Shown here: in pieces, positions 9,008-16,609 of the stretch
How the letters are laid out: each line of letters starts with the position of its first letter
Numbering within the stretch: the stretch's first letter is position 1
Assembly: GCA_005893265.1 (NCBI GenBank)
Contig: VBOX01000066.1
Location: 1 to 33,987 of the forward strand
DNA: 33,987 nt
Direction: 5' to 3'
Origin: Candidatus Eiseniibacteriota bacterium
GTDB lineage: Bacteria; Eisenbacteria; RBG-16-71-46; SZUA-252
The notes under the pieces: generated by a model
What the model was told of the DNA's origin: nothing
The model's input: only the letters and a program-made list of their open reading frames with translations
Database searches by the model: none
Position numbers and translations under genes: made by a program

Positions 9008-9787
9008 ATGGTTTCCCTTCTTCACGCGTGGGATGCGTGGCTGCTCTGCCTTGTGCTGGCCGGGCTCGTCCCCTTTCACGGTGCTCTCGCCTACGGGCGC
9101 TTGAAGTCGGGGCCCGATCCGATCCCGACCGGGACCAAGCTCCGCCTCTACGCGACGATCATCGCCATGGAGTGGGGCCTCGTCGCGCTGACCTTTGCGG
9201 TCCTCCATCACCACGGGCTCACGCTGGGCGACGTGGGGCAGCGACTGGGCAATCCCGCGCTCACGCTCTCCGCCATGGTGGTCGGCTTTCTTGGGCTCGC
9301 CGCGATCACCGCGCTGAACGCTCGGCAGATTCGCGGCGCCGAACGCGAGGAGCTCGAGCGTTCGGTGGAGCGCGCGCGCAAGTTCGTGCCGATCGAATCC
9401 ACGGAGGTCGCCGCGTTCGCCATCGTGTCCCTGACCGCGGGGATCTGCGAGGAGATCCTCTACCGCGGGTGGCTCGTGACCTTCCTCGGGGCGTTTTTCG
9501 GATCGATCTGGATCGGCGTGGTCGTCGCGGCGGCTCTCTTCGGGCTCGGCCACGCATACCAGGGGTGGAAAGGGATTCTGGCAACCGGGATCTTGGGGGT
9601 TCTCTTCGGGGCGATGTTCGTCGGGGTGAAGAGCCTCGTCCCGGGACAGGCGCTCCATGCGGGGATCGACATCGTGAACGGGGTGCTGGCGGGCGGGATC
9701 GTGAAGCGGCTCGGCCCCCCGCCCGGCGGCCCGGTCCCGGACTCCGGCCCGCCGCCTACCGACCCGGCTCCGCCTACCGCAACGTGA
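9008..9787 (+). CDS. CPBP-family intramembrane metalloprotease
   Basis: 259 residues with several membrane segments, of the CAAX-protease/bacteriocin-processing family (Abi/CPBP), in the inner membrane. The conserved motifs are EEILYRG (148–154; Glu-Glu-x3-Arg), FGLGHAYQG with His182, and LHAGID with His217, the expected set of catalytic and metal ligands. A Pro-rich tail (about 237–259) follows the last helix. It is the final gene of the salvage operon, 2 nt after PNP, without an obvious functional link. Its 3′ end overlaps the end of the opposite-strand HEAT–cyclophilin gene by 14 bp. It is paralogous to the gene at 17370–18119 (shared SLTAG-x-CEE and HxYQG). Confidence 0.9.
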   Translation: MVSLLHAWDAWLLCLVLAGLVPFHGALAYGRLKSGPDPIPTGTKLRLYATIIAMEWGLVALTFAVLHHHGLTLGDVGQRLGNPALTLSAMVVGFLGLAAITALNARQIRGAEREELERSVERARKFVPIESTEVAAFAIVSLTAGICEEILYRGWLVTFLGAFFGSIWIGVVVAAALFGLGHAYQGWKGILATGILGVLFGAMFVGVKSLVPGQALHAGIDIVNGVLAGGIVKRLGPPPGGPVPDSGPPPTDPAPPTAT

Positions 9788-11699
9788 CCTTCATGATCCG
9801 GTCCCCGGGCATGAGGCGCTCCACGACCTCCATCCCCCGCGTGACCTTCCCGAACACGGTGTAGCGCCCCTCGAGCCGCGGTTGCGGCGAGAGGGTGATG
9901 AACCATTGGCTCCCGCCGGTGTCCTTTCCCGAAAGCGCCATCCCCACCGTTCCGGTCTCATAGGGCCGATCGTTGTACTCGCACGGGATCATGTAGCCTG
10001 GGCCGCCCCATCCGTCCCCCCGCGGGCAGCCGTCCTGGACGACGAAGTTCGGAACGACGCGGTGGAACGCGATCCCGTCGAAGTATTTCGCTCGCGCGAG
10101 CTTCACGAAATTCTCGACCGTCCCGGGCGCGTGGGCGTGATCGAACGCCAGCGTGATGATGCCCCGTTCCGTGTGGATGAGCGCCGTTCGCGGAACGAGG
10201 CTCTCGCTCACCGCGCGCAGCAGCGGATTGCTCACGAGGCCGATCGAATCGGGCGGCAGCCCGAGCGCCAGGCACACGGTCTCGCGGATCCGGCGCTCGG
10301 GATCGCGACGTACACGGGCGAGCGCCGCGAGCGCGTCTCTTGTCTTGATCGCGGCCAGGGCCGAGGCGGCCGCTGCGCGTATGTCGGCGTCGTCGGTGGT
10401 GCCGACGCGCGCGAGGAGCGAAGCGAGCGACGGCACCGACGCACTGTCCCCGAGCTGGCCCAGCGCGTCCGCCGCCGAGCTGACCACGGTGAAGTCTCGC
10501 GCGCCGAGAAGCGCCCGGAGAGCGGGAATCACCTTGGTGGAATCCGTTTTCCGTTGCGCGAGACCCGCGACCGCGCCCGCGGCCTGCGGCGCGTCGGTCG
10601 AGTCGCGCGCGCGCGCGAGGAGCGTTTGGAGCGCCATCGGACCGGGCACCGGCCCGAGAGCCTCCATCAGTCCGGCACGCATGAATCCGGGGAGCAGATC
10701 GAGGGGCTGAGCGATCGCCGGGATCGCCCGCTCACCCTGGATCTTGAGAAGGGCGATCGCGGCGCCCTGGACGACGCCGGTCGCGGAGTCGGAGAGCGCC
10801 CGCGTGAGCGCCGCCACGGAGACGCTGTCTCCAAGCGTGCCGACCGTCAGGGCGGCCTCCCAGCGGACGTGCGCGCTCGGATCCGCGAGGAGCGCCCGGA
10901 CCGCGCCGGCCTGCCCCTTCGCGCCCAGAACCCCGAGCGCGTGCGCCGCGTTCACCCGCACGCGCCAGGCGGGATCGCGCAGGAGCGTGGCCAGAAGCCC
11001 GGCCGCCGATGAATCCGCCGCCTCGCCCAGCGCGCGGGCGGCGCTCATCCGCACGACTTCGACCTTGTCGCGAAGGAGCGTTCGCAGGGCGGGCGCCCCA
11101 GCCCGATCGCCGATTCGGCCCAACGCATAGGCGACGCGCCATCGCATCTCGGGACGCGCGTCCGTGGCGTGGGCGGAAAGCGGCGATATGAGCGCACGGT
11201 CGCGGATACGCGCGGCCGCGAGGGCCGCGTCCCAGCGCTCGGGCTCGAGCCTGGCACTCAGGGCCCGCGATATCGTCGGGGCGCTCCCGTGCGCTCCGAT
11301 ATAGCCGAGAGCCACCACCATCGCCTCGCGCGCTCCCAGATCCGGCTCACGCTCCCAGCGGAGCGCGAGAGCGGGGGAGGCGGTCGAGTCCCCCATGAGC
11401 CCCAACGCGAACGCGGCCTGCCGGCGCACGGCTGCGGATCCATCGCGGAGTGCTACGACCAGCGCGGGAACGCTGGCGCGCTCCTGGATGAGCCCGAGCG
11501 CGCGCGCCGCGCCGGCACGCGTCACGGCGGAGCGGTCGCGAAGGAGCGCTCCGGAAAGGCCGGTGGTATCGCGCTCGGCCGCGCGACGCTCGAGCCACGC
11601 GACGCGCGCCTGGGCCGGCGCGGGGGGAGCCTGCGCCCCCGCCACGGGAGCAAGAGCGCACAGAAGGAGGACGCTGCCCACCACCGCCGGCCTCACCAC
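9774..11699 (-). CDS. Secreted HEAT-repeat protein with C-terminal cyclophilin domain
   Basis: 641 residues. An N-terminal signal peptide (hydrophobic VVGSVLLLCALAPVAGA, likely cleaved before QAPPAP) sends it to the periplasm. Residues ~35–495 are tandem HEAT/PBS-lyase-like repeats of about 31 residues (e.g. VTRAGAARALGLIQERASVP; VEVVRMSAARALGEAADSS). Residues ~506–641 are a cyclophilin-type peptidyl-prolyl isomerase: FHRVVPNFVVQDG, SQWFITLSPQPRLEGRYTVFGKV. The catalytic Arg of FHR is present; Tyr replaces the His of eukaryotic cyclophilins, a common bacterial variant. Start GTG at 11697–11699 (or the next GTG) follows the GT9 stop by 4 nt. As the last gene of the ECF σ operon it suggests a periplasmic folding role in an envelope response. 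Confidence 0.88.
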   Translation of the reverse strand: MVRPAVVGSVLLLCALAPVAGAQAPPAPAQARVAWLERRAAERDTTGLSGALLRDRSAVTRAGAARALGLIQERASVPALVVALRDGSAAVRRQAAFALGLMGDSTASPALALRWEREPDLGAREAMVVALGYIGAHGSAPTISRALSARLEPERWDAALAAARIRDRALISPLSAHATDARPEMRWRVAYALGRIGDRAGAPALRTLLRDKVEVVRMSAARALGEAADSSAAGLLATLLRDPAWRVRVNAAHALGVLGAKGQAGAVRALLADPSAHVRWEAALTVGTLGDSVSVAALTRALSDSATGVVQGAAIALLKIQGERAIPAIAQPLDLLPGFMRAGLMEALGPVPGPMALQTLLARARDSTDAPQAAGAVAGLAQRKTDSTKVIPALRALLGARDFTVVSSAADALGQLGDSASVPSLASLLARVGTTDDADIRAAAASALAAIKTRDALAALARVRRDPERRIRETVCLALGLPPDSIGLVSNPLLRAVSESLVPRTALIHTERGIITLAFDHAHAPGTVENFVKLARAKYFDGIAFHRVVPNFVVQDGCPRGDGWGGPGYMIPCEYNDRPYETGTVGMALSGKDTGGSQWFITLSPQPRLEGRYTVFGKVTRGMEVVERLMPGDRIMKVTLR

Positions 11700-11703
11700 G
11701 GCC

Positions 11704-12750
11704 TCACCCCACCGCGCATCGATCCTCCGCGAGCAACGGAAGTGCTGCGTCCAGGACGTCGCGCGGCTCCACCGATTCGAGCCTACCATCCGCCCCCCGC
11801 ACGCTTCGCACGCAGCGCCCGACCGGCCGCCACTCGGCGGGATCGGTCCAGCCGTAGATCCCGATCGAGGGACAGCCCGTCGCCCCCGCGAGATGGAGCG
11901 GCCCCGTGTCGTTTCCGACGTAGAGCGCGGCGCGCGCGAACCGCGCCGCAAGCGTCGGGATGGCCTCGTTCCGCACGACCGGGAGCGTCATCCGGAGCGC
12001 CGAGCTCACCGCTTCCACCGTACCCTGGTCCTGAGGCCCCTCGAGCCACCAGACGGAATACCCGCGCCCGACCAACTCGCGGGCAAGGGCCGCGAAGCGG
12101 TCGGCGGGCCAGCGGTTGTGGTGCTTCCCCGCGCCGGGATGGAGGTAGACGGCGTTCTCGGGCGCGTGCGCGAGGAGCGCGGGATCGGGGATGTAGTAGG
12201 GAGGCTCAGGAGCGGCGCCGGCTCCGACCGCGCGCGCGAGCGCCAGGTTTACCTCGGATTGGTGGAGAGGCGGTGCGGCCCCGGTGCCGCGGTTCGGCGC
12301 GGGGCATGTCTCGGTGCCGCCCGCCACGCGCGGGTACGCCACGGGCAGCGTCAGATCCGCTCGATCGCGCTCTCGATACCACGCGGCGTCGAAGCCCACG
12401 CGGTCGCGCGCTCCCGACCACCGCACGAGCATGGCCGCGCTCCTTGAATACGAGACGGTCGTGAAGTAGACAGCCAGGTGGGGTCGGGGACCCGGCAACC
12501 CACGCAACCCGGCCCGCGCGACGCCAAAAAAATTCCGCGTGTCGACCACGCGGATCTCATCGGCCCATGGCTGGCCGAGGACGGCGCCTGCATTCTGACG
12601 CCCGACGAACAATACAATGTGTGCGTCACGGAATCGCTCTCGAATCGAGCGGATCGCGGGAACGTTCAGGAGGAGATCGCCGAGCTGATTCTGGGGGCGG
12701 TACAGGTGAATCCGGGTCGAGGCCGAAGGGGTCGGCCCGGCCGCGGACAT
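11704..12750 (-). CDS. Glycosyltransferase family 9 (ADP-heptose:LPS heptosyltransferase-like)
   Basis: 348 residues. GT9 enzymes transfer heptose (or a related sugar) from a nucleotide donor onto lipopolysaccharide core at the inner membrane's cytoplasmic face. The N-terminal RPQNQLGDLLLNVPAIRSIRERF corresponds to the family's GDxLLtxPxI motif. The C-terminal half carries VYLHPGAGKHHNRWPADRFAAL and the donor-site YVGNDTGPLHLAGATGCPSIGIYG. ATG at 12748–12750 is preferred; an in-frame TTG at 12756 would instead overlap the anti-σ stop. The spacing to the anti-σ gene (2 nt) and the downstream gene (4 nt) places it inside the ECF σ operon, so envelope glycan modification may be part of that response. 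The exact acceptor is unknown. Confidence 0.88.
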   Translation of the reverse strand: MSAAGPTPSASTRIHLYRPQNQLGDLLLNVPAIRSIRERFRDAHIVLFVGRQNAGAVLGQPWADEIRVVDTRNFFGVARAGLRGLPGPRPHLAVYFTTVSYSRSAAMLVRWSGARDRVGFDAAWYRERDRADLTLPVAYPRVAGGTETCPAPNRGTGAAPPLHQSEVNLALARAVGAGAAPEPPYYIPDPALLAHAPENAVYLHPGAGKHHNRWPADRFAALARELVGRGYSVWWLEGPQDQGTVEAVSSALRMTLPVVRNEAIPTLAARFARAALYVGNDTGPLHLAGATGCPSIGIYGWTDPAEWRPVGRCVRSVRGADGRLESVEPRDVLDAALPLLAEDRCAVG

Positions 12751-12752
12751 GC

Positions 12753-13025
12753 TCAAACCATCTTGGGCGGCTCGCCGCCCTTCAACCTCAGCTTTTCAAT
12801 CTCGATCACCTTCACGAGACGATCATGGCATCCGACGGGCATGACCTGCGGCTTGGCGTCGTTTTCATGCTTGTAGAGTTTGATCGTCATGGTGAGGGTG
12901 TCGAATTCGGCACGGCAGTCGGAGCAGAAACCGATGTGTTTTCGCATTTCCGCGACCAGATCCGCTTTCATGTCCGCGTCGAGATAATCGGATATCGAGT
13001 CGAGGACCTCCTTGCACGTCAGCAT
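12753..13025 (-). CDS. Zinc-binding (ZAS) anti-σ factor, soluble
   Basis: 90 residues. It shows the ZAS signature HIGFCSDC, with ligands His30, Cys34 and Cys37 in H-x3-C-x2-C, and an additional Cys4. Proteins of this class bind their cognate ECF σ in the cytoplasm and release it on a signal. No membrane segment follows, unlike membrane-anchored anti-σ factors, so a cytoplasmic (for example redox or metal) signal is more likely than a periplasmic one. The start ATG overlaps the σ stop by one base (TGATG), a classical arrangement for stoichiometric σ/anti-σ production. The C-terminus ends close to the GT9 start. Confidence 0.88.
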   Translation of the reverse strand: MLTCKEVLDSISDYLDADMKADLVAEMRKHIGFCSDCRAEFDTLTMTIKLYKHENDAKPQVMPVGCHDRLVKVIEIEKLRLKGGEPPKMV

Positions 13026-13624
13026 CAGTGGGCTCCCATGACACGTTTCGGTTTGGCGTTCTCGCTGAAGTAACCGGCGATACGGTTTCTCACCTTGAGG
13101 CGCGCCCGGTGGAGCCGCGACTTCACGGCCGCCACGGATAGATCCAGAATGTCCGCCACTTCCGCATTGGACATCTCCTCAATGTCGCGCAGGACGAATA
13201 CCTGGCGAAACTCCGGAGGAAGGGCCCCGATCGCCTCATCCATCACCTGCTGCAGCTCCCGGTTGAGAAGTTGCTCCACGGGTCCCGGAGTCCAGTCCGC
13301 GATGTTGACCGGGGTCTCACGCTCATCGGCGTCTTCGATGGAGACCGTGGGAAGCTGCTTTTTCCGCAAACGCATCAATGCGGAGTTCGCGGTGATGCGA
13401 TAAATCCAGGTCGAAAAGGTGGATGCACCCTGGAAGGATTTGATGCCGCGATACGCGCGGAGGAACGTGTCTTGGAGTACGTCCTCCGCATCCTCGGGAT
13501 TGCGCACCATCTTCAGCGCCAAACTGTAGACCTTCGATTCATAGCGGGAAATCAACTCTCCAAAGGCCCTCTCGTCGCCCTCTTTGGATTTTCGGACGAG
13601 TTCCTCATCGGTAGGAGCGGGCAC
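13025..13624 (-). CDS. ECF-family RNA polymerase σ factor
   Basis: 199 residues, the normal ECF size. Region 2 is at about residues 20–90 (FGELISRYESKVYSLALKMVRNPEDAEDVLQDTFLRAYRGIKSFQ), with the RNA-polymerase-binding DAEDVLQDTFLRAY helix. Region 4 is at about 128–182 (IGALPPEFRQVFVLRDIEEMSNAEVADILDLSVAAVKSRLHRARLKVR) with its helix-turn-helix. The start is GTG at 13622–13624, preceded by a GAGGAA ribosome-binding sequence. It heads the σ–anti-σ–GT9–HEAT/cyclophilin operon. The upstream promoter looks σ70-like rather than an ECF autoregulatory GGAAC type. It belongs to the RpoE-like ZAS-controlled ECF group by context. Confidence 0.93.
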   Translation of the reverse strand: MPAPTDEELVRKSKEGDERAFGELISRYESKVYSLALKMVRNPEDAEDVLQDTFLRAYRGIKSFQGASTFSTWIYRITANSALMRLRKKQLPTVSIEDADERETPVNIADWTPGPVEQLLNRELQQVMDEAIGALPPEFRQVFVLRDIEEMSNAEVADILDLSVAAVKSRLHRARLKVRNRIAGYFSENAKPKRVMGAH

Positions 13625-13691: not shown

Positions 13692-13720
13692 AGGCTATGG
13701 GGGCGGCGCTACGGTGTCAA
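13692..13720 (-). promoter_or_regulatory. σ70-type promoter of the ECF σ operon
   Basis: On the minus strand TTGACA (13720–13715), 17-nt spacer, TAGCCT (13697–13692). It is identical in both boxes and spacing to the hom promoter. The −35 directly abuts the target-site duplication of the insertion sequence, so everything upstream of −35 has been replaced by the element's left end. Confidence 0.55.
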
Positions 13721-13737
13721 GAAGTGCAGACTGCCCG
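13721..13737. repeat. Left target-site duplication of the insertion sequence
   Basis: GAAGTGCAGACTGCCCG, 17 bp, identical to 15108–15124. It marks the insertion point of the element at 13738–15107. Confidence 0.88.
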
Positions 13738-13785
13738 TGTAGAGAGCACATCATGTGTCCGCTTTTTAGCACGTCATTTGTCCGC
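13738..13785 (+). repeat. Left terminal inverted repeat
   Basis: 48 bp, containing TGTCCGC at 13756–13762 and 13779–13785 with CACGTCA between them. It pairs with 15060–15107 with one-base gaps. The doubled heptamer suggests two transposase-binding sites per end. Confidence 0.8.
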
Positions 13786-13840
13786 TTCCCTTTTTGGGGT
13801 TGGGGTGGGGACCCTCCCGGGTCTGGAAGGAGGGCCTGGG

Positions 13841-15055
13841 ATGATCCTGAGACCGACCCCGCAGGAGCGGGCGATGAAGGTGAAGGACGTGATGGTGCGG
13901 GCGCTGGCAGGGGAGCTTAGTTGGCTTCAGGCCGCAGATTTGGTGGGAATGAACGTTCGAAGCATGCGCCGCTGGCGACGGCGGCTGGAGACATGGGGTA
14001 TGGAGGGGCTGGTCGACCGACGCTTCCGTCCATCCTCGCGAAAGGTACCCGGACGGGTCATTGCGTGGATCCTGGGGCAGTACAAGAGCCGGTACCAAGG
14101 CTTCAACGTGCGACATTTCCATGCGGTGCTGAAGCGGGAGCACGGGTTCCGCTACTCGTATTCTTTCGTGAGGCAGGTGCTCCAACACGGAGGACTGGTG
14201 AAGACGATGCGTCCTCGAGGGCGGCACCGGCTCCGGCGAGAGCCCAGGGCCATGTTCGGAGAGCTCCTCCACATCGACGGGAGCGTTCATCGCTGGCTCG
14301 CCCGCTCTCCCGAGGAGCGCGCTTCGCTGATCACCATCGTGGATGACGCCACGAAGCAACTGCTCTACGCGCAGCTCGCTGAGGCAGAGAGCACCGCCAC
14401 CATCATGGAGGCGCTCACAGCAGTGTTCCGTCGCTGCGGGCTAGCCCAAGCCCTTTACTCCGACCGAGCGAGCTGGGCCGCCCACACTCCGGTGAGGAAT
14501 GAACCCGTCGACAGGACCAAAATCACCCAAGTAGGCCGAGCCCTGAAGCGACTCGGCATCGAGCACATCCTCGCCTACTCCCCTCAGGCCCGAGGCCGGA
14601 GCGAACGGGTGAATCGTACGTTGCAAGACCGCCTCGTGAATGAGCTTCGCATTCATGGGATCCGTACGATCGAAGGGGCGAACCGCTATATCGCCGACCA
14701 CTTCCTCCCCGGCTACAACCTCGAGTTCGGCCGCGCCCCGAGCGATCCCGCCTCAGCGTTCGTATCCCTCGGCAGCGTCGATCTCAATCAGATCCTCTGC
14801 TTTGAGGAAGAGCGCGTCGTCCAGAAGGACAATACCGTTGGCTGCGAGGGGCTCCGGCTCCAAGTGCCCAAACAACGCGGCCGTACCACCTGCGCCGGCC
14901 TTTCACTCATCGTCCGGCGCCACCTCGACCAGAGCTACAGCGTATGGCGAGGCACTCAGCGTATCGCTATGTACGACTCCCGGGGACGGCTCCCAGCCGC
15001 CTCCAAAAAAGCGGCCCCTCCGACTCCCAATTTCCAGACCGGAGAGGCCGCATAA
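13841..15055 (+). CDS. DDE transposase, IS1202/ISNCY family
   Basis: 404 residues. An N-terminal helix-turn-helix (about 10–60; LSWLQAADLVGMNVRSMRRWRRRLE) recognises the ends. It is followed by an rve-type integrase core: Asp146 in LLHIDGSVHRW, Asp208 in ALYSDRASW and Glu255 in QARGRSERVNRTLQ, the expected DDE triad. The C-terminal β-rich domain (about 320–395) matches the layout of ISNCY transposases. ATG at 13841 is chosen because GGAAGGAGGG lies upstream, although the frame is open from 13271. The gene appears intact and functional. Codon use is GC-rich but less extreme than that of the neighbours, in line with foreign origin. Confidence 0.93.
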   Translation: MILRPTPQERAMKVKDVMVRALAGELSWLQAADLVGMNVRSMRRWRRRLETWGMEGLVDRRFRPSSRKVPGRVIAWILGQYKSRYQGFNVRHFHAVLKREHGFRYSYSFVRQVLQHGGLVKTMRPRGRHRLRREPRAMFGELLHIDGSVHRWLARSPEERASLITIVDDATKQLLYAQLAEAESTATIMEALTAVFRRCGLAQALYSDRASWAAHTPVRNEPVDRTKITQVGRALKRLGIEHILAYSPQARGRSERVNRTLQDRLVNELRIHGIRTIEGANRYIADHFLPGYNLEFGRAPSDPASAFVSLGSVDLNQILCFEEERVVQKDNTVGCEGLRLQVPKQRGRTTCAGLSLIVRRHLDQSYSVWRGTQRIAMYDSRGRLPAASKKAAPPTPNFQTGEAA

Positions 15056-15059
15056 CCAT

Positions 15060-15107
15060 GCGGACACTTGACGTGTCAAACGCGGACATTTTGATTTGCT
15101 TGTTACA
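15060..15107 (+). repeat. Right terminal inverted repeat
   Basis: Contains GCGGACA at 15060–15066 and 15082–15088, the reverse complement of the left-end TGTCCGC boxes, and ends TGTTACA. It begins 5 bp after the transposase stop codon. Confidence 0.8.
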
Positions 15108-15124
15108 GAAGTGCAGACTGCCCG
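15108..15124. repeat. Right target-site duplication of the insertion sequence
   Basis: Perfect 17-bp copy of 13721–13737. Rejoining the two flanks restores an intergenic region in which AGTGCAGACT is followed 25 bp later by AGTGCAGATT (15135–15144), with a CCCGG/CCGGG stem between them. Confidence 0.88.
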
Positions 15125-15154
15125 GTGGCCCGGGAGTGCAGATTTTGCGGAAGC

Positions 15155-16609
15155 TCAGACTACGCTTAGACGATCCGCCTCGGACGGGGTTCCCACCCGC
15201 CGCTCACGCGGACGGTCGATGCCGTGGCGCCGCATCTTCGAACGCAAGCTCCCGCGGCCGATCTTGAGGAGTCGCGCCGCCTCCACGACGTTGCCGTCCG
15301 CGCGGTCGAGCGCCGCCTGGATCACGGCCCGCTCGACGGCCGGAAGGGACACGCCCTGCGGAGGAAAGGTGATGTTGAAGCCGGAGAGATCCTCCGTCCC
15401 CGACTCACCGCTCGTGTGGGGCATGGCCAGCTCCGCCGGTCCGATCTCTTCCGAGCGCGCGAGAAGAACGGCGCGCTCGATCACGTTCGACAGCTCCCGC
15501 ACGTTGCCCGGCCAGACGTACCGGGCGATTTCTCGCTCGGCATCGGCGGAAAGACCAGCCGTGCGTCCCAGCTTCCGTGCCACGCGCTCGACGAAAATCC
15601 GCGCGAGGAGCACAGGATCCCCCTCCCGCACCCGCAGGGGGGGAATCTCGATGGGCACGACGTTCAGGCGATAGTAGAGATCCTCGCGGAAGCGTCCCTG
15701 TTTCACCTCGTTGATCAGCTCCCGATTCGTCGCCGCCAGGATCCGGACGTCGACGGGAATATCCCGCGAGCCGCCTACCCTTCTCACGATCTTGGAGTCG
15801 AGGAACTTGAGGAGCTTCGCTTGAAGGGTGAGCGGAAGCTCGCCGATCTCGTCGAGGAAGACGGATCCCCCCTCGGCGGCCTCAAAGAGGCCGATGCGGG
15901 TTTGCGTCGCGTCGGTGAAGGCGCCCTTCTCATGGCCGAAGAGCTCCGATTCAAGAAGCTCGCGCGGGATTGCGGCGCAGTTCACATCCATGAATGGCCC
16001 TTGCTTCCTCGGGCTCTCGCCATGAATTGCCCGCGCGAAGAGTTCTTTGCCCACTCCAGACTCGCCCAGGATGAGAACCGACGTCGCGCTCGACTCGGCG
16101 ACCCGCCGCGCCAGATCCACCGATTCCTGGATCGCGAGGCTATGCCCGACGATGCGGTCGAAGCGGAATTCCTGCTCGATGCGCGCATGCTCGCGCTGCT
16201 GGCGCGCCTGCTGCGCGACGGACCGGCCCGCCGCGCTGAGAAGGGCGTCCAGCTGGGTGAGGTTGACCGGCTTGAGGAAGATGTTCCGCACGCCGAGCTC
16301 GAGCGTCTCGGTCGCCTGCTGGGTATCGCGATCCGCGAGCACCACGAGCTGGAGCTTGGGCCAATGATCCTTGAGCTGGCGAATCGCCGCCCGCTTTTGC
16401 TCCAGCGCCTGCGTGATGGCGGCCGGCAACCCAGACGCGGTCGGTCCAAAGTCGACCAGCGCGATCTCGCAGGAATCATTCCCCCCCCGTGCGAGATATT
16501 GGGGCACGTGGTCCGCGACGCGGACGGTGCAGTCCCGGCTCGTGATGTGCTCGACCAGGGAATCGCGTTCGTTCCCCGGCGGCATGATGACGGCTATGTT
16601 GAGATTCAT
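15155..16609 (-). CDS. σ54-dependent transcriptional activator (NtrC-type) with degenerate receiver
   Basis: 484 residues. Residues 1–125 are receiver-like: the phospho-acceptor position Asp53 (ALVDF) and Lys113 (FLKPV) remain, but the usual N-terminal acidic pair is replaced by MPPGNE. The AAA+ domain (about 152–385) has Walker A GESGVGKE (182–189), the σ54-contact loop as GAFTDA (229–234, normally GAFTGA), Walker B VFLDEIGE (250–257) and the sensor region [17 protein letters not shown] Fis-type helix-turn-helix ([24 protein letters not shown]) ends the protein. It should act as a hexamer that remodels σ54-RNA polymerase at −24/−12 promoters. No sensor kinase lies beside it. The 21736–21756 promoter is a candidate target. 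Confidence 0.92.

Follow-up and report, generated by a model that had tools for sequence, protein, structure and literature searches.

An IS1202-family insertion sequence beside the promoter of an ECF sigma factor gene in Candidatus Eiseniibacteriota, and sigma70-type promoters as the most likely target of its long-duplication branch

The window analysed here, a stretch of 33,987 nucleotides of contig VBOX01000066.1 from a Candidatus Eiseniibacteriota bacterium (assembly GCA_005893265.1), carries an intact insertion sequence of the IS1202 family, 1370 bp in length and flanked on both sides by a perfect 17-bp target duplication, between the gene of a sigma54-type activator and an ECF sigma operon (Table 1). 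The two direct repeats (GAAGTGCAGACTGCCCG) are identical at 17/17 positions; the repeat was reckoned as 18 bp by the program, the base before the left copy (A) being the same as the last A of the element. The termini are TGT...ACA, and the imperfect terminal inverted repeats are accompanied at each end by an extra inner box, as is characteristic of IS1202 elements. Two boxes thus lie within 48 bp at either end, an outer AGCAxATCA...TGTCCGC and an inner CACGTCAxxTGTCCGC, the latter 14/16 identical between the ends (compared by eye). A second copy in the same genome (L002, C15:1-117) is cut by the contig end and is identical over its 117/117 bp, from which it follows that the element moved recently and that the assembly breaks on it; this contig stops inside the element, about 50 bp before the start codon of the next ORF, and promoter likeness is weak there (score 5, under the threshold given below). 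The preliminary description of the locus, which had proposed a recent IS1202-type insertion with a perfect 17-bp duplication, two-box ends of 48 bp and an intact transposase, is borne out in all of these respects. Elsewhere in the window (9774-11951, minus strand) a long ORF was seen by eye to join HEAT-like repeats to a cyclophilin-type domain.

Table 1. Features of the insertion and of the adjoining genes (positions in the window)
Feature	Position	Strand	Remark
Zinc-finger anti-sigma factor gene (zf-HC2)	12753-13025	-	overlaps the end of the sigma gene
ECF sigma factor gene	13025-13624	-	driven by the target promoter
-10 box TAGCCT of target promoter	13692-13697	-	17-nt spacer
-35 box TTGACA of target promoter	13715-13720	-	abuts the left duplication
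Left copy of 17-bp target duplication (GAAGTGCAGACTGCCCG)	13721-13737	.	between element and -35 box
Insertion sequence, 1370 bp, long-duplication branch of the IS1202 family	13738-15107	+	
Left end, two boxes (TGTAGAGAGCACATCATGTGTCCGC ... CACGTCATTTGTCCGC)	13738-13785	+	end facing the promoter
DDE transposase, 404 aa (from ATG 13841)	13841-15055	+	transcription directed away from the target promoter
Right end, two boxes (TGTAACAAGCAAATCAAAATGTCCGC ... CACGTCAAGTGTCCGC, inward reading)	15060-15107	-	
Right copy of 17-bp target duplication	15108-15124	.	
Sigma54-type activator gene	15155-16609	-	adjoined the sigma gene on its upstream side until the insertion

The transposase ORF is free of stop codons, and its product passes the NCBIfam model NF033594 (transpos_ISNCY_2) with 297.5 bits at a cut-off of 250, while the IS481 model remained under its own cut-off; the ISNCY_2 and HTH models alone matched in the Pfam and NCBIfam scans, and the Mutator family (p-MULT) was absent from them. 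The predicted catalytic residues are D146, D208 and E255, followed by Q262 seven residues past the glutamate; E255 and Q262 are invariant among 17 aligned sequences. In the available part of the account of the family by Harmer, Pong and Hall (2023, PMC10132070), this Q seven residues after the catalytic E, here in place of K/R, is the hallmark of IS1202. An AlphaFold2 model (mean pLDDT 79.6, pTM 0.66), whose domain arrangement was taken from its secondary-structure string, predicts two N-terminal HTH domains, an RNase H core and a beta barrel, the fold expected of an IS1202 transposase. The closest solved folds are IstA of IS21 (Z 16.4, rmsd 11.6 over 268) and TnsB of ShCAST (Z 15.8, rmsd 14.1 over 334), both full-length superpositions being loose; a weak sequence match to TnsB was also found (E 2e-4). 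Tn7/CAST and IS21 pick their targets through the partner proteins TnsC and IstB, whereas no partner of this type is encoded in the window element. Regarding its place within the family, the 17-bp duplication falls within the 16-28 bp of the IS1202 long-duplication group, and in the transposase tree 6 rows of the short-duplication group were split from the 53 other rows with a support of 100/100.

The left duplication adjoins, on the minus strand, the TTGACA of a promoter-like sequence (TTGACA-17-TAGCCT) that stands 67 bp ahead of the ECF sigma gene. This contact had been noted in the preliminary description, where the sequence was called an ECF sigma promoter; it does precede the ECF sigma gene, but it is of the sigma70 type and not of the ECF type. 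Both hexamers are kept in 9/9 aligned sequences (the window and eight relatives whose sigma proteins are 73-96% identical), with a spacer of 17 nt in seven and 18 nt in two, and by this conservation the predicted promoter is real. Judged from the upstream sequences, the activator precedes the sigma gene in 6/8 of these relatives. In the nearest of them, the sister genome G003, whose sigma protein is 96% identical, the element is absent and the activator and ECF genes are adjacent. The sequence there continues without interruption from the end of the activator gene into the promoter, and immediately ahead of TTGACA it contains the duplicated stretch once, in diverged form (CCTGCACTGC vs TCTGCACTTC). 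This empty site supports the insertion as first described; the lack of a single copy at this place, named in that description as the refuting outcome, did not occur. The distance from the activator stop to the ECF start, now 1530 bp, comes to 143 bp after subtraction of the element and one duplication (1387 bp), in good agreement with the earlier estimate of about 150 bp. The core promoter is untouched by the insertion, and owing to the duplication the 17 bp next to the -35 box on its upstream side are still the original ones; lost to the promoter are the sequences beyond these and whatever read-through came from the activator gene. A 10-bp sequence, AGTGCAGAYT, occurs twice at the right duplication, 25 bp apart (15110-15144), with one similar stretch in the sister genome; it was rejected as a target motif, being found at 4 places in the genome (control 0) and bearing no relation to the other sites. 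A dif-like site was likewise rejected as the target, none being seen by eye beside the element.

Relatives of the element were gathered from six or more phyla. A search of the genome contigs with the transposase sequence alone gave no matches, and a two-row transposase alignment gave 79 loci. A search for the element in close relatives, covering the class (46 further genomes), gave no match at E 1e-40; the phylum search, which covered the same 47 genomes, gave five matches with 32-34% identity. The IS1202 subgroup with 24-29-bp duplications lies outside the site sample. The duplication could be measured at 33 sites including the window and was 17 bp at 16, 16 bp at 14, 18 bp at two and 15 bp at one of them. 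Just outside it on the left side, the sequence G-(T/G)-C-A-A is strongly conserved at the very edge; the complementary strand there reads TTG(A/C)C, followed at the canonical distance by a -10 consensus TATxxT (17-bp spacer), the predicted promoter pointing away from the element. Two Mesorhizobium loci (L051 and L111) have nearly identical promoters and differ in their duplicated sequences, the element being present at both; either these are two independent hits on homologous promoters, or the upstream stretch has diverged. In two Pseudohongiella genomes (L156 and L157) two related elements lie about 3.9 kb apart, with left ends facing promoter-like sequence, a possible composite arrangement. 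Homology to IS1202-like transposases was also seen in seventeen Vibrio phage records (H24-H40, 9-13 kb), mostly near one end and annotated as hypothetical proteins.

The usual -35 and -10 hexamers of bacterial promoters are TTGACA and TATAAT, separated by a characteristic spacing. Each site was scored by its matches to TTGACA at the edge of the duplication plus those of the best TATAAT at a spacer of 16-18, with a threshold of at least 7 of 12. This rule is the textbook consensus and was chosen after the first 33 flanks had been seen, so that the held-out set and the fresh set test it more cleanly. One locus with mis-set ends (L125) was dropped, which left 32 of 33 left ends; seven duplicate flanks were removed before counting, and a locus with a probably mis-set end (L060, score 4) was kept and counts against the promoter claim. 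Left ends without a measured duplication were placed on their TGT...TGTCCG termini, the choice between two closely spaced candidates being made by hand where it arose. The threshold was reached at 24/32 left ends with a measured duplication (1.4% of random host positions at the fixed distance), at 23/33 held-out left ends, for which the duplication was not used (null 2.7%, best of two distances), and at 6/9 sites with a measured duplication in fresh genomes searched later. The binomial tails, in which sites are treated as independent, are 1.5e-38, 5e-29 and 5e-10, respectively, and overstate the certainty because some of the sites are related. The mean score was 7.47 at the edge itself, 5.16 and 4.81 at one base to either side (-1 and +1), and 2.75-3.75 at 2-12 bases off. 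When the spacing was left free between 8 and 27, the -10 peaked at 17 nt (15.7/32 votes in the known set, 13.2/33 in the held-out set). Among 30 left-facing sites the base counts were T30 T25 G29 A13/C13 C20 for the -35 box and T22 A26 T19 ... T23 for the -10 box, with spacers (the best of 16-18 being chosen) of 17 at 23, 16 at five and 18 at two sites.

Scores of at least 7 are spread over the large clade of the transposase tree, among elements from Gemmatimonadota, Rokuibacteriota, Methylomirabilota, Myxococcota and Pseudomonadota besides the phylum of the window. Regarding the right ends, 9/62 reached a score of 7, among them the copies of Desulfobacillus denitrificans AP021857 (L089, L090 and L161), whose left ends score 3, 2 and 4 and whose right ends score 10, 9 and 10; by their scores these copies follow the same rule with the right end, a natural switch of orientation inside the group. 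Sequence comparison thus shows the register, the spacing, the orientation and the spread across the group. Seven relatives of the short-duplication group, from plasmid records, served as a control. The ends could be set in three of them, all with 5-bp duplications, and no promoter was found at 16-17 bp in these 3/7 (scores 4-6 at the 16/17 position); a dif-like site lay beside the left end in 2/3, which agrees with published data, with a weaker likeness in the third. The window element differs from this ISAjo2 pattern of a 5-bp duplication next to a dif-like site, having a 17-bp duplication and a promoter instead.

About a quarter to a third of the sites are under the threshold, including the second copy in the genome of the window and 3/5 measured-duplication copies of one genome (G183), and all promoters at insertion sites are predicted and not mapped. 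Regarding the genes on the promoter side, whose ORFs start within about 420 bp, Pfam matches were found for 10/20 scanned (of 28 besides the window), against 7/20 scanned (of 28) on the far side, a weak contrast; 8/10 held-out ORFs had matches, these 10 having been picked from 23. There are nevertheless clear cases, in which the downstream gene codes for ribosomal protein L20, for S2 (twice), for a universal stress protein or, in the window, for the ECF sigma factor. By its ends, its transposase and the length of its duplication, the element is a member of the IS1202 long-duplication branch (16-17 bp), and this branch very probably inserts preferentially beside sigma70-type promoters.

That promoters are the target of this branch is the most likely reading, and several others were weighed against it. 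The preliminary description had treated the contact with TTGACA as incidental to an ordinary recent insertion, significant for a possible change in the expression of the ECF sigma factor. The element is indeed recent and does separate two neighbouring genes, and the contact is real; it is, however, a property of the whole group, whose members show the same relation to promoters, and on this pattern a chance contact was rejected and that account is highly improbable. The insertion may change sigma expression, but this reading is weakened by the intact state of the core promoter and by the retention of its original 17 bp ahead of the -35 box. Equally at odds with the data, and extremely improbable, is an absence of any targeting, in which random insertions survive mostly near promoters and those within genes are lost. 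Such a loss would agree with the insertion points inside ORFs of at least 200 aa (15/30 against 73% of random positions), a mild depletion obtained with a crude ORF caller; selection cannot, on the other hand, yield a register exact to the base, with a mean of 7.47 at offset 0 and about 3.3 at two or more bases, nor a fixed orientation, nor the appearance of this rule at the opposite end in a single lineage.

It is also conceivable, if unlikely, that the transposase itself reads a short motif TTGxC (GxCAA at the edge of the duplication) and that promoters are struck only for containing it. The -35 half is in fact the sharper one, with 29-30/30 at two positions, and its place relative to the cut is fixed to the exact base. 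The -10, which lies 23-29 bp from the cut, speaks against such a motif: at TTGACA-like sites (4/6) in host non-ORF DNA (n=1183) a -10 of at least 3/6 was found in 30% and of at least 4/6 in 6.7%, against 20/23 and 11/23 at the insertion sites with a TTGACA-like -35 and 13/15 and 8/15 in the held-out set. By these counts the putative -10 is no by-product of the -35, and the commonest spacing is the canonical 17 nt, 16 and 18 being found at some sites.

On the promoter reading, one strand of the target is joined precisely at the upstream border of the -35 box, and the joint on the other strand lies a further 16-17 bp upstream. After repair the left end of the element is therefore found at a distance of 16-17 bp upstream of -35, separated from the promoter by one copy of the duplicated stretch (about -37 to -53). 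The orientation is fixed, with the left end to the promoter and the transposase reading away from it, and is reversed in one lineage. The transposase may locate the site by way of promoter-bound RNA polymerase rather than by its own reading of the DNA, the parts concerned presumably being sigma region 4 at the -35 box and the alpha C-terminal domain, which binds just upstream of it. RNA polymerase is suggested as the guide because the -10 lies at 23-29 bp from the cut with a spacing that varies as the polymerase allows, and because the cuts lie to either side of the region just upstream of the -35 box to which the alpha C-terminal domain binds. The long duplication would spare the promoter, since its own upstream stretch is kept.

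Regarding known systems, the available text on the IS1202 long-duplication group (IS1202, ISTde1, ISCARN53/62/63 and ISHahy13 among others; PMC10132070) describes the same TGT...ACA ends with inner boxes, the same transposase of about 400 aa with Q at E+7, 16-17-bp duplications and a size of about 1.4 kb; no conserved target is reported in that text, whereas a sigma70 promoter is the putative target here. The ISAjo2/ISAba32 group of the same family shares the architecture, a left end one duplication away from the target and the fixed orientation, but forms a separate clade with 5-bp duplications and dif/pdif (XerCD) targets. In the part of the study by Guerillot et al. (2014, PMC3942029) that was available, TnGBS, ISLre2 (p-MULT 3) and the ISKra4 group (p-MULT 4) insert 15-17 bp upstream of the -35 box of sigmaA promoters, mostly in a fixed orientation. 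The long-duplication branch of IS1202 inserts at this same predicted distance, although those elements have Mutator-like transposases and the right end by the promoter (PMC3942029), unlike the IS1202-family transposase and left end found here, and the likeness between these unrelated elements looks like convergence. Both the behaviour and the family are known; their combination was not encountered, promoter targeting by IS1202-family elements being absent from the titles, abstracts and passages that the literature search covered.

As a tentative generalisation, the whole IS1202 family might home on DNA to which a host protein machine is bound, namely XerCD at dif in one branch and the RNA polymerase holoenzyme at promoters in the other, with the length of the duplication given by the geometry of the captured complex and the outer cut located where the bound site ends. 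Under this view, elements of the long-duplication branch would be transposons guided by the polymerase, and their use of the same spot upstream of the -35 box as TnGBS and ISLre2 would be convergent. Should promoters be the target, the insertions of a widespread group would mark promoters and be predictable from sequence, and a second, unrelated transposase lineage would land 16-17 bp upstream of the -35 box. Whether a bacterial transposase is guided by RNA polymerase becomes a testable question, and the retention by the host promoter of its own upstream stretch is a candidate reason for the odd long duplication.
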